Assembly (NCBI GenBank): GCA_030630935.1
Contig: DAOVMD010000177.1
Span: forward strand, 1-6,561
Length of the DNA stretch: 6,561 bases
Direction of reading: 5' to 3'
From: Candidatus Mcinerneyibacteriota bacterium
GTDB lineage: Bacteria; AUK180; JAQVHJ01
The translations under genes and the position numbers were made by a program. Under the pieces are notes generated by a model. The model did no database searches. It was not told where the DNA came from and saw only the letters and a program-made list of their open reading frames with translations. Within the stretch, counting starts at the first letter, position 1. Each line of letters starts with the position of its first letter. This document shows, one piece after another, positions 3,086-6,532 of this stretch.

Positions 3086-3102
3086 TTTCGCTTCGCTCAA
3101 CA
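3086..3102 (+). repeat. 17-bp direct repeat, copy 1
   Basis: TTTCGCTTCGCTCAACA recurs exactly at 5996-6012 in the same orientation. This copy lies nine bases upstream of the -35 box of the mscS-like gene. Both copies run into AT-rich, low-complexity tails. Confidence 0.8.
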
Positions 3103-3130
3103 ATGAAGAATGAATAGTGAAGAATGAATA
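3103..3130 (+). repeat. Tandem 14-bp repeat (two units)
   Basis: RTGAAGAATGAATA occurs twice without a gap (3103-3116 and 3117-3130), differing only in the first base. It directly follows the 17-bp repeat. Confidence 0.7.
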
Positions 3131-3405: not shown

Positions 3406-3441
3406 TAATCTTACTGAAAAATTAAATCTTTTTTTTTTTAA

Positions 3442-3543
3442 AATCGTTTACGATTTTTATGAAAAAGATTCGTAGCCTGGGGCTTCAGCCCTAGGAAAAC
3501 GATTGAAAAATATTCGACATTTATGTCGAGTTATGAAAACAAT
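3442..3543 (+). repeat. Composite three-hairpin element, left copy
   Basis: Parts in order: an 11-T tract just upstream; hairpin 1 (AATCG-TTTA-CGATT, 3442-3455); 20 bases; hairpin 2 (CCTGGGGC-TTCA-GCCCTAGG, 3476-3495); AAAA; 15 bases; hairpin 3 (CGACA-TTTA-TGTCG, 3515-3528); two bases; TTATGAAAACAAT (3531-3543). The same parts occur at the same spacings, on the other strand, at 6107-6207. Stem differences between the copies are compensated by matching changes on the opposite arm. Function is unknown. Confidence 0.85.
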
Positions 3544-3715
3544 AATTTTTTATTTTTTTTGTTCTCATCCGTTCTCTTTAGTTCCCTGTTAATTAATTTT
3601 TTGCATTCTCTAATTACTTTAAACATCAATCGCTCTAAACAATTATAAACAGTATAATTAAGTCCATTACAAGTCCCTTCCAGTCACTGTTAAAATTTTT
3701 CCTTTTGTTTGTTTT

Positions 3716-3752
3716 CTCCGTGTCCGGAGTTTACCCTGAATTCACTTCGGGG
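3716..3752 (+). other. Two adjacent hairpins before a T-rich run
   Basis: CTCCG-TGTC-CGGAG (3716-3729) is followed by TTTA and then CCCTGAA-TTCAC-TTCGGGG (3734-3752, one G-T pair). A T-rich stretch runs from about 3764 to 3805. This resembles an intrinsic terminator pair on the plus strand, but no plus-strand gene lies upstream. It may be a repeat, or the end of an unrecognised non-coding transcript. Confidence 0.4.
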
Positions 3753-3830
3753 CGGTGAAATATTTTTGCTCTTTTTGTTGTTTTTCTTTGTTTTGGTTTT
3801 CTTTTGTAATGAGTGATTAATGGAACACCC

Positions 3831-3882
3831 TTGATAAATTTAGAAATTACATTTCTTTGGAAACAGAAAAATGTTTTATCAA
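3831..3882. repeat. Nested stem-loop
   Basis: TTGATAAA (3831-3838) can pair with TTTATCAA (3875-3882), enclosing AGAAAT-TAC-ATTTCT (3842-3856). All stems are AT-rich, so part of this may be chance. Confidence 0.35.
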
Positions 3883-3999
3883 TAATGCTACTTTATTTTA
3901 TTAACAGAATGTCCCAAGTTTTTTCTTTTTTTATGTTCTTCGTACTTTCTTGTTTTCGTGGCAAAAAAAATATTTTCGTGACTTCATAATAAAAATCAC

Positions 4000-4028
4000 T
4001 TGATTTTACTAAATAACTATGTTAAAAT
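4000..4028 (+). promoter_or_regulatory. Promoter of natAB
   Basis: TTGATT (4000-4005), a 17-bp spacer and TAAAAT (4023-4028). Only six bases separate the -10 box from the natA ATG, so the predicted transcript starts at or next to that ATG. Two TTTTCGTG copies lie upstream (3953-3960 and 3973-3980, 20 bp apart) and could be activator or repressor sites. Confidence 0.6.
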
Positions 4029-4034
4029 GCATCC

Positions 4035-4784
4035 ATGTTAAAAGTAACGAATCTTCATAAGACATTTAAGCAAAAGAAAGAGACTATTAAAGCAGTCGCT
4101 GGAGTCTCGTTTGACGTTCGACCCGGTGAAGTTTATGGATTACTCGGACCTAATGGCGCAGGGAAAACAACTATTCTCAGAATGATCTCAACACTGTTAA
4201 AACCTGATGAAGGTGAAATCTTTATCAATGATGAGAACATTAAAGATAACCCTGTCAAATCAAAGAGAGCTTTGGGTTTTCTATCAGGAACAACGGGTTT
4301 ATATGATAGGTTGACTGCTGAAGAAATGGTAAGATATTTCGGAGACTTATATGGCCTGGAAGAAGAAATTTTAAATTCCCGGATAGAAAGTATCTTTGCA
4401 CTTCTTGATATGAAGGATTTCAGAAAAGTGCGCTGTTCAAAATTATCAACAGGAATGAAACAAAAGGTTTCTATTGCCAGGACTCTAATTAATAATCCAC
4501 CTTTACTCGTCCTTGATGAACCTACAATGGGTCTTGACGTATTAAGTGCAAAAAATATAATCGATTTTATTAGAAAAAGTAAAGACGACAAGAAAGCAAT
4601 AATCTTTTCAACTCATATTATGTCTGAAGCAGAATATCTCTGTGATCGAGTCGGGATCTTACATAAAGGTAAGATTTACTTTTCAGGAACTTTAAAAGAG
4701 ATAAAAGCTAAAGCTGGTGTTGATCATCTTCAAGATTTATTCTTTTTACTCGATAAAAAGGAAAAGGTTCTAAGTGAAAATTAG
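4035..4784 (+). CDS. natA: ABC transporter ATP-binding subunit, NatA type
   Basis: Cytoplasmic ATPase (249 residues) expected to power the membrane partner encoded next. Visible motifs: Walker A GPNGAGKT (38-45), signature LSTGM (137-141, replacing LSGGQ), Walker B LLVLDEP (157-163) with catalytic Glu162, D-loop GLD (166-168) and switch His194. At the Q-loop position the sequence is GFLSGTTGLYDRLT (81-94), with no Gln. This form is familiar from NatA-like proteins and so is a subfamily trait, not damage. Length is normal for the family. The ATG at 4035 has no Shine-Dalgarno sequence, but the N-terminus MLKVTNLHKTF matches family starts, and the promoter position suggests a leaderless message. 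The 3' end overlaps the permease gene by 11 bases. B. subtilis NatAB exports Na+; many relatives have unknown substrates, so the substrate here is not proven. Confidence 0.93.
   Translation: MLKVTNLHKTFKQKKETIKAVAGVSFDVRPGEVYGLLGPNGAGKTTILRMISTLLKPDEGEIFINDENIKDNPVKSKRALGFLSGTTGLYDRLTAEEMVRYFGDLYGLEEEILNSRIESIFALLDMKDFRKVRCSKLSTGMKQKVSIARTLINNPPLLVLDEPTMGLDVLSAKNIIDFIRKSKDDKKAIIFSTHIMSEAEYLCDRVGILHKGKIYFSGTLKEIKAKAGVDHLQDLFFLLDKKEKVLSEN
4762..4767 (+). promoter_or_regulatory. Ribosome binding site of natB, inside natA
   Basis: AAAAGG lies six bases before the GTG start at 4774, within the last codons of natA. This supports the GTG start and translational coupling. Confidence 0.65.
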
Positions 4785-5991
4785 AAATATATTTATTATA
4801 TTTAAAAAAGAATTTACTGACTTGCTTCGTGATAAAAGAACAATCATTGCAATGGTTGTTGTACCAATTGTTGTCATGCCGCTACTATCTTTAGGTGTAT
4901 TTTCTTTAATGATGGTTCAGATGAAAAAGATTGAAGAAAAAACCATAAAGATTGGAATTGTAAATTATTCTGAATCTAATTTAATTCAGGGAGAGATTGA
5001 AGCACCCGATGAAAACGATAAAAAATTAAAAGTACAATTTATAAAAGCTTCTAATGAAGAAGACCTCAATGAGAAATTAAATAATAAAGAAATCCAGATC
5101 GGTTTAATCGTTAATGAAGACTTAACTGAAAAATTGAAATCAAATGAAAGTTCAGAATTAATTATAGTTTTTGACCAATCCCGTGAAGTATCTCAAATGG
5201 CAAGTCGAAAGATTTCTGCAAAAATACGGACCTTCAGAGATGTCATTAGAGATGAAAGATTAAAGGGAATCGGGCTCTCAGATAATTTTATCTATCCTAT
5301 TAAAATATCCTATCACGACCTGAGTACTCCTAAGAAGATAGGTGCTTTTATAATTGGAATGCTTCTTCCATATATGCTTATAATTCTTTCAGTCGCCGGA
5401 GCGTCTAACCCCGCAATGGATATCACTGCAGGTGAAAAGGAAAGAGGAACTCTTGAAACAATACTCGTTTCACCTGCTTCAATTACTGAAATTACATTTG
5501 GAAAATTCTTCACTATTCAAGCTGTTTCAATAATCTCAACATTCCTAATATTGGCAAGTTATTTTGTCTTTCTGAAATTTGGACTCTTTGCTACAATGGC
5601 TGATATGCAATTAAAAATAAATATTCCATTTAAATCATTAGCGTTAATCCTGTTTCTATTCTTACCTATCTCAGGAATGTTCAGCGCACTGTTACTAACT
5701 CTTTCAATCTATGCAAAATCCCTGAAAGAAGCTCAAAGTTATATGGCTCCCATTATGGTAATGACAATCTTCCCCGCGATGATTTCGCTTCTCCCGGGAA
5801 TTGAGCATAGTGTTTTGCTATCTTTCATTCCAATTATGAATATCAGCCTTACCATAAAAGGAATTATCAGGGATGATTTCAATCTCTTGTATTACTCCCT
5901 CACATTCCTCGCATCAACTATCTATGCCCTGATTTGCCTCTTCATTGCAATGAATATATTCAAACGTGAAAGCGTCCTGTTCAGAGCATAG
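4774..5991 (+). CDS. natB: ABC-2 type permease subunit, NatB type
   Basis: Inner-membrane partner of the upstream ATPase (405 residues, GTG start). The cytoplasmic N-terminus IFIIFKKEFTDLLRDKRTI is typical of this family. TM1 is at about 24-47, followed by a large extracytoplasmic domain (50-187) rich in charged residues. The remaining helices cluster at about 188-210, 246-268, 288-311, 324-341 and 373-395, with a further hydrophobic segment near 346-359. The cytoplasmic motif GEKERGTLETILVSPAS (220-236), between TM2 and TM3, is the hallmark of ABC-2/NatB permeases and contacts the ATPase. The sequence SFIPIMNISLTIK (350-362) is also typical. The gene is intact. The pair probably forms an A2B2 exporter. 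Sodium export is the textbook role for the family; a peptide or drug substrate is equally possible. No terminator with a T-run follows. Confidence 0.92.
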   Translation: MKIRNIFIIFKKEFTDLLRDKRTIIAMVVVPIVVMPLLSLGVFSLMMVQMKKIEEKTIKIGIVNYSESNLIQGEIEAPDENDKKLKVQFIKASNEEDLNEKLNNKEIQIGLIVNEDLTEKLKSNESSELIIVFDQSREVSQMASRKISAKIRTFRDVIRDERLKGIGLSDNFIYPIKISYHDLSTPKKIGAFIIGMLLPYMLIILSVAGASNPAMDITAGEKERGTLETILVSPASITEITFGKFFTIQAVSIISTFLILASYFVFLKFGLFATMADMQLKINIPFKSLALILFLFLPISGMFSALLLTLSIYAKSLKEAQSYMAPIMVMTIFPAMISLLPGIEHSVLLSFIPIMNISLTIKGIIRDDFNLLYYSLTFLASTIYALICLFIAMNIFKRESVLFRA

Positions 5992-5995
5992 CCAA

Positions 5996-6012
5996 TTTCG
6001 CTTCGCTCAACA
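5996..6012 (+). repeat. 17-bp direct repeat, copy 2
   Basis: Exact copy of 3086-3102, beginning four bases after the natB stop codon and therefore probably in the natAB transcript. Confidence 0.8.
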
Positions 6013-6106
6013 TTTATGATTTATAATTGATAGTTGATAATTATTAAACCGATTTCTCATCGTTTATTACCCATTCATTAGTTGTTTTAATTATCTTTGT
6101 TTTTTT

Positions 6107-6207
6107 ATTGTTTTCATAAGCAGCATAAATGCTGTGTGTTCTTCTGTCATTTTCCTAGGGTTGAAACCCCAGGTTATACATTGTTGTCATAAGAATCGTA
6201 AACGATT
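6107..6207 (-). repeat. Composite three-hairpin element, right (inverted) copy
   Basis: Read on the minus strand: a 7-T tract, hairpin 1 (6207-6194, identical to the left copy), 20 bases, hairpin 2 (CCTGGGGT-TTCA-ACCCTAGG, 6174-6153 including its flanks), AAAA, 15 bases, hairpin 3 (CAGCA-TTTA-TGCTG, 6134-6121), one base, TTATGAAAACAAT (6119-6107). Hairpin 2 differs from the left copy by a C-G to T-A pair swap. Hairpin 3 has a different stem around the same TTTA loop. All spacings match the left copy except for one base. Confidence 0.85.
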
Positions 6208-6321
6208 AAAAAAAGGAATATCTTATCTAAAGACTTTATCATTTAATTGTTTTCATATATTGAAATTATCTTTTATCGTTTTGTCAACTGTAAATCATTT
6301 AACATAGATTGGAAGCTATTC

Positions 6322-6358
6322 GGTTAACTCTGTTAACCTCACCGAGAACAGAGAGCAG
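6322..6358 (-). repeat. Partial inverted member of the CTCTGTTCTC repeat family with hairpin
   Basis: On the minus strand CTGCTCTCTGTTCTC (6358-6344) equals positions 1887-1901 of copy A. Five bases later comes GGTTAAC-AGA-GTTAACC (6338-6322). The AGA loop is the same as in copy B, while the stem is unrelated. Confidence 0.65.
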
Positions 6359-6398
6359 AGAGTTGAGAACAGAAAAATAATTTTTTATATAATAATTA

Positions 6399-6458: not shown

Positions 6459-6509
6459 ATGCTTATATCTATAAAACGACTGCTCTCGGTTCTCTGATAT
6501 CTGTTCTCT
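6459..6509 (+). repeat. 51-bp interspersed repeat, copy B
   Basis: Direct copy of 1866-1916 with five substitutions and no gaps, about 4.6 kb away. It is followed directly by a hairpin, as in copy A. Confidence 0.8.
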
Positions 6510-6511
6510 GT

Positions 6512-6532
6512 TCAAGCAACAGAGTTGCTTGA
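6512..6532. repeat. 9-bp perfect hairpin attached to repeat copy B
   Basis: TCAAGCAAC, loop AGA, GTTGCTTGA. It is the strongest hairpin of this repeat family. No T-run follows. Confidence 0.7.

Follow-up and report, generated by a model that had tools for sequence, protein, structure and literature searches.

The GTAG-tagged repetitive extragenic palindromic (REP) sequences (Di Nocera et al. 2013, PMC3733652), known from several phyla, are short GTAG-footed palindromes with a small loop and compensatory stem variants that lie between genes in many copies, and these traits, the foot only in part, are shared by the element treated here: a unit of three hairpins (H1, H2 and H3), two inverted copies of which lie around natA- and natB-like genes (natAB) in a 6,561-nucleotide (nt) stretch (hereafter the window; contig C416, DAOVMD010000177.1) of a Candidatus Mcinerneyibacteriota genome (GCA_030630935.1, the source genome). 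In contrast to GTAG-tagged REPs, the GTAG hairpin here is the central one in a fixed unit some 102 nt long and has RTAG as its foot (GTAG in 58% of copies). The element is a short intergenic REP-like repeat present in about 40-60 copies in the source genome, its stems are maintained, and its hairpin plan is associated in other genomes with genes of a little-studied HUH subclass (1.2) of single-strand DNA transposases; the explanation we favour, as probable although far from certain, is that the element is a REP-like composite, itself non-autonomous, which a protein of that subclass spreads in trans.

Several other described systems are similar in part. REPtrons (PMC2817692, PMC6006769, PMC8266576) comprise an HUH-Y1 tyrosine transposase gene (TnpAREP, or RAYT) flanked by genome-dispersed hairpins, whereas the gene concerned here is of subclass 1.2 (Y---Q--HH) and not a class-2 TnpAREP. 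Bacterial interspersed mosaic elements and REPINs (PMC3116915) are likewise composite REP-bearing intergenic mosaics, and copies in the nearest relative of the source genome (G001, same family) also form head-to-head inverted pairs; a REPIN, however, joins two inverted, tagged REPs of one kind, while here two untagged hairpins (A type) flank one tagged hairpin (B type) on the same strand. Hairpin-containing inverted repeats surround a Y1 transposase gene in TIRtrons (TIRYT; PMC3733652), and a GTAG unit is joined to another stem-loop in the Pseudomonas putida GTAG-1 plus stem-loop repeats, but TIRYTs belong mainly to subclass 2.1 (PMC6006769) and the P. putida ones to subclass 2.5. In the IS200/IS605 family, a Y1 transposase with a tetranucleotide guide recognises subterminal hairpins in their single-stranded form; the present element, unlike members of that family, has no internal gene and is a multi-hairpin repeat dispersed without a transposase.

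Structure of the three-hairpin element

The initial annotation of the window had described two inverted three-hairpin copies bracketing natAB, and it placed them correctly to the base and on opposite strands. The copies and the parts of the left one, with pairing values from 31 aligned full-length copies, are as follows:

3442..3543, + strand: left copy of the three-hairpin element (102 nt; covariance model R1, 119.4 bits, E 2.1e-16)
6107..6207, - strand: right copy of the three-hairpin element (101 nt; R1, 108.2 bits, E 1.8e-14)
3434..3548, + strand: left copy in its likely full extent, with T-rich left and A-rich right borders (information content at background past about -8/+5)
3442..3455, + strand: hairpin H1 (A type), AATCG-TTTA-CGATT (helix 97.4% paired; double changes at 3 pairs)
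3472..3475, + strand: GTAG foot, a REP-type tetranucleotide directly 5' of H2 (alignment of 31 copies)
3476..3495, + strand: hairpin H2 (B type), CCTGGGGC-TTCA-GCCCTAGG (helix 98.8% paired)
3514..3529, + strand: hairpin H3 (A' type), TCGACA-TTTA-TGTCGA (helix 84.4% paired; double changes at 5/6 pairs)

Model R1 was built from the 31 copies and run against the source genome. In the alignment, H1, H2 and H3 occupy columns 1-14, 35-54 and 75-90, with gaps of 20 nt between H1 and H2 and about 20 between H2 and H3, and the length is steady over copies (100-103 nt), the two window copies being 77% identical to each other. H1 and H3 carry no tag; the foot of H2 is GTAG in 18 of the 31 copies, ATAG in 12 and ATAA in one (the right window copy). 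H2 with its 5' foot appears to be a GTAG-tagged REP core, flanked at fixed distances by H1 and H3, and it has the stem of ~6-13 bp with a short loop, the many copies and the mostly extragenic location of that group. The consensus of the whole element is an A hairpin (AATCGTTTACGATT or AGCCATTTATGGCT)-NN-TATGAAAATGATTC-RTAG-B hairpin (CCTRGGGN-TTYA-NCCCTAGG)-AAAACGATWGAARAAYA-A' hairpin (stem-TTTA-stem)-NN-TATGAAAACAAT, and, as conservation extends about 8 nt beyond the left border first drawn and 5 nt beyond the right one, the full unit is about TTTTTTAA-[102]-AAAAA.

That the stems are maintained, as had been proposed from the two window copies, is borne out by a pair test in which the cells forming standard pairs were compared with shuffled (500 shuffles) and with slid partners. 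Standard pairs fill 93.9% of the pair cells over the 31 copies, against 82.3% when shuffled and 26-47% with slid partners, and both sides are changed in 78 cells against 24.8 in shuffles, a count reached by 0/500 of them. The H1 helix occurs in two classes (AATCR/YGATT and AGCCA/TGGCT); the 8 pairs of H2 enclose a TTYA loop, and the C-G to T-A swap earlier noticed at its loop-closing pair recurs among the copies, G-C being found there as well; H3, described as differing in sequence and pairing nonetheless, does so among the 31 copies as well, at the values listed above. The pair at columns 38-51, read on the GTAG strand, is GU 21 times, AU eight times and GC once, and this common G-T pair, possible on no other strand, marks the GTAG strand as the one that is structured. 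Its folding as RNA is more stable than that of shuffled sequences (z -4.7 for the left copy and -2.7 for the right), and a search of Rfam with the element matched no family. A longer pairing of an H1 arm with AAACGATT 3' of H2, favoured by the minimum-energy fold, was rejected, as it lacks covariation and is paired in 74.6% of cells against 75.1% when shuffled.

Copies and placement in the source genome

The source genome (G000) is a draft of 3.16 Mb in 471 contigs, 80% complete. The element is repeated there far more often than chance would allow. A DNA search placed it at no fewer than 40 sites (at least 40 at E<=1e-3; 89 first-look candidates), a degenerate hairpin pattern for H2 gave 42 matches where the reversed pattern gave 0, and the covariance model, by which further copies had been proposed to be sought, returned 59 matches at E<=0.1; 44 reach E<1e-5, and 36 of these are close to full length. 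Among 40 relatives, the model matched only in the same-family genome. The full-length copies are intergenic, none lying within a convincing open reading frame (ORF) and two overlapping short dubious ones (312-333 nt), and they show no strand or side bias relative to neighbouring genes, being found upstream and downstream in either orientation. The first suggestion, an interspersed REP/MITE-like (miniature inverted-repeat transposable element) structured repeat, is supported by the number of copies between genes, by the upkeep of their stems and by the GTAG-type foot.

The copies are variable in their make-up, and other intergenic repeats form mosaics in their flanks. From position 17 onward the left window copy is 97% identical to one on contig C327, but the two differ in their H1 hairpins, and on this comparison of sequences hairpins seem to have been exchanged between copies as modules. 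Some copies consist of H1 and H2 only; five of them break off at GGAAAA(C), immediately 3' of H2, and in other partial copies H2 is interrupted by an insertion element. The latter, with the terminal repeat CGTGRGTTTATCACG, is a REP-targeting insertion sequence (IS), such as has been reported in other genomes (PMC1525189): all 7/7 ends found sit at CTAG, and 5/7 interrupt H2 of the three-hairpin element and have CTAG to either side (a probable duplication); its interior is not assembled on the contigs concerned (L045, L070, L072, L073 and L301-L307; source contigs C79, C308, C120, C115, C30, C143 and C151).

Copies with the AGCC-type H1 (L032, L039, L041, L068 and L070) have some 60 nt more in common upstream (GAGACTTGTAAGAGATAATATATAAAAAAGAATTTATTGTTTAAATCAAATGTTTTTGAA), and a longer composite unit therefore exists. 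At L017:2001-2230 (G000:C130), degenerate copies stand in tandem with H2 decayed.

The same hairpin plan in other genomes

The plan, that is, an A hairpin, 6-10 nt, NTAG, a B hairpin, ~20-25 nt and an A' hairpin, is found again in no fewer than six bacterial phyla. When about 85,000 species genomes were scanned for GTAGCCTNGGGNTTNANCCCNAGG, 90 stretches came back, their sources including Bacteroidota, Chlamydiota, Planctomycetota, Chloroflexota, Desulfobacterota, Acidobacteriota, cyanobacteria and others. They yielded 82 usable sites (GTAGCCT hairpins), which are not independent, about fifteen stemming from one Chlamydiae metagenome-assembled genome. A second hairpin lies 5-20 nt upstream of the foot at 44/82 of these sites (against 3.6% for randomly chosen positions of these loci), one lies 10-35 nt downstream at 22/82 (5.3% in the random-position control), and hairpins lie on both sides at 16/82 (0.2% in the control). 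Distances keep within narrow limits, as a rule 6-10 nt on the upstream side and 19-25 nt on the downstream side, and the stems vary by lineage (e.g., GTCGCGGAGCGAC, CCCCGAAGGGG and TTCCCCATCGGGGAA) while the plan is constant; in G001, too, the same plan is built from other stems, often in head-to-head inverted pairs.

Subclass-1.2 genes beside the module

Y1_Tnp genes occur in 16/20 of the hairpin-bearing genomes, and those embedded in arrays of the module encode short proteins with DHVH, FxWQxGYG and YIxNQxEHH motifs. By their motifs and length (DH[IV]H, WQ, YI-NQ--HH, about 150 aa) they match TnpA-Y1 HUH subclass 1.2 of Quentin et al. 2018 (PMC6006769), and D59, H60, H62, Y120, Q124, H127 and H128 are invariant in an alignment of L166 with 11 others. 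That survey listed subclass 1.2 with "no" associated structures and as not sharing IS properties (PMC6006769). Inverted module copies nonetheless surround a subclass-1.2 gene in Desulfoferrobacter (L212) and Holophagales (L213), the B hairpin of L212 (CCTGGGG..CCCCAGG) being essentially H2 of the window, with GAAG as the foot of its left copy, ATAG as that of the right and another GTAG copy downstream; hairpin arrays are likewise present at the subclass-1.2 loci L203, L204, L206, L210 and L214. G001 itself has an intact subclass-1.2 gene (YINNQEEHH) with A-GTAA-B-A' hairpin arrays on both sides. The gene-flanked arrangement of a REPtron is thus found for the same plan in other genomes.

In addition, 42 subclass-1.2 loci were sampled independently from 386 genomes, without selection for hairpins and with some loci sharing genomes. 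They have 4.56 hairpins/kb up to 350 nt from the gene, against 0.95 at greater distances and 0.39 in shuffled sequence, and IS200 loci gave 2.22 near the gene. The A-TAG-B layout stands near the gene at 9/42 loci, against 1/42 far from it (p=0.007) and 1/29 near IS200 genes (p=0.03), and flanks both gene sides in six cases. A strict GTAG-only test was too narrow and was widened to TAG, the foot at these loci being NTAG, mostly GTAG or TTAG.

The 290-aa Y1 family was also considered as the cognate gene and rejected, being absent from 80 hairpin loci and having tagged hairpins at 0/28 of its own; the two such genes of the source genome (L047 and L048) have no element adjoining.

Weighing the explanations

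In the explanation favoured here, the element would act as folded single-stranded DNA; a subclass-1.2 protein, which in the source genome is by now truncated, lost or missing from the assembly, would recognise the NTAG foot and the hairpins on a single strand and nick it with its own tyrosine, and the module would be re-joined elsewhere, giving the dispersed, mosaic copies. Recognition, cleavage and movement by this protein are suggested on the model of TnpAREP, an enzyme that acts on single-stranded REPs in vitro (PMC8266576).

Several points weigh against it, the main gap being that no intact subclass-1.2 gene stands beside the exact element. None was found anywhere in the 80%-complete source genome, and the 102-nt element adjoins no Y1 gene of that assembly. 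A single subclass-1.2 gene was found there (L046:740-1207, G000:C247); it is truncated before the tyrosine motif, the hairpins around it are of another family, and its 3' part consists of CTCYGTARGAGC hairpins in an in-frame tandem, their feet being GTAA/GCAG. Y1_Tnp had no match in 4/20 hairpin genomes, including that of the isolate Algoriphagus terrigena; the strict A-TAG-B layout is present at only 9/42 independent loci, with modest statistics and loci that share genomes; and the gap from the A hairpin to the foot is 16 nt in the source genome against 6-10 elsewhere (9 in G001). Foot position 1 is A in 12/31 (ATAG) plus 1/31 (ATAA) copies, unlike most described GTAG families, the foot degeneracies described for GTAG-tagged REPs differing from such a change (PMC3733652), and no excision or insertion event was observed.

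As to L046 itself, its C-terminus is an in-frame translation of the tandem hairpin array (KDIALTELQRYRSY...), and GCTCCGTAGGAGC hairpins lie upstream.

The main rival is a class-2 mobiliser: H2 would be an ordinary GTAG REP spread by a TnpAREP (RAYT), with H1 and H3 as accessories acquired by chance, comparable to the P. putida "degenerate GTAG-1 plus unrelated stem-loop" repeats. A GTAG foot is indeed the hallmark of class-2 TnpAREP substrates (PMC3733652, PMC6006769), and the source genome and its class have several class-2 Y1 genes; these, however, are of ~290 aa and resemble subclass 2.1, which is reported without REPs, and a tagged hairpin lies within about 1.5 kb at 0/28 of their loci. 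As H1 and H3, moreover, covary and keep fixed spacing, and the A-B-A' plan recurs across phyla, we hold this rival to be unlikely, if still the one to be reckoned with.

Less probable again is that the element works as RNA, its transcribed stems stabilising, terminating or attenuating transcripts. The stems are kept with G-U pairs on the GTAG strand, that strand folds more stably than shuffles, and REPs are thought to act partly at the RNA level (PMC3733652), yet there is no bias of orientation or position, no Rfam family, and no T-run 3' of the hairpins on the structured strand; a secondary effect at the RNA level may still exist. The same observations speak against an RNA leader and against the terminator or boundary device that had been considered in the initial annotation, copies standing on both sides of genes in either orientation, and the window element does not show the form of an intrinsic terminator (a hairpin and then a T-run, downstream of genes, in one orientation).

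Discrete borders (TTTTTTAA...AAAAA), small size and many copies would suit a MITE of a cut-and-paste (DDE) transposase, the T-rich and A-rich ends serving as short terminal inverted repeats. Measured against terminal inverted repeats of 15-30 bp with a target-site duplication, though, the ends are homopolymer-like (a T-run and an A-run only) and a duplication is unreadable in the A/T-rich flanks, whereas the internal stems covary and the plan recurs beside HUH genes, so a DDE origin is very improbable.

The natAB genes and other features of the window

The genes between the two copies are:

4035..4784, + strand: natA-like ABC ATPase (PF00005, E 9.4e-35; 77% identical in G001)
4774..5991, + strand: natB-like ABC-2 permease (PF12698, E 2.3e-30)

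Inverted copies bracket exactly these two genes in the window, and it had been proposed that they bound a transferred or invertible cassette, an idea that is scarcely credible given that natB is single-copy in 7/7 genomes of the class comparison sample (66% identical in G001 and 34-39% in the others), that natAB in G001 has different neighbours and no element within the contig stretch examined, that the window holds no recombinase gene, and that the copies, being 23% divergent, are therefore not a recent duplicate pair. The bracketing needs no special explanation, because ~44 copies per 3.16 Mb give, by simple arithmetic, about 1.6 pairs within 2.7 kb by chance; natAB are probably bystander genes and the bracketing coincidental.

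Elsewhere in the window, 1860-1920, 6310-6370 and 6464-6532 belong to another intergenic repeat family (CTGCTCTCTGTTCTCTG..., often with the palindrome GGTTAACnnnGTTAACC), which is also present in the flanks of many three-hairpin copies, and a short repeat, TTTCGCTTCGCTCAACA, stands at 3089-3105 and 5996-6012, a similar one (CTCGCTTCGCTCA) adjoining element copies L026 and L045. On the minus strand, 3-1730 is a 576-aa ORF, open at the contig end, with a signal-peptide-like N-terminus and no Pfam match.

Implications

There is, in our estimation, an even chance that the A-NTAG-B-A' module and the subclass-1.2 gene make up a REPtron-like class of their own, not recognised before and represented in at least six phyla, in which an orphan HUH subclass would gain a substrate and of which the window would hold dispersed copies, in a genome whose gene has decayed; the REPtron-like pairing with subclass 1.2 is probably new, as judged against the open-access literature. 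The conserved three-hairpin module around subclass-1.2 genes offers a concrete candidate substrate for a subclass described without any DNA structure, links scattered intergenic repeats of several phyla, and represents a composite kind of REP, with one tagged hairpin enclosed by two that carry no tag.

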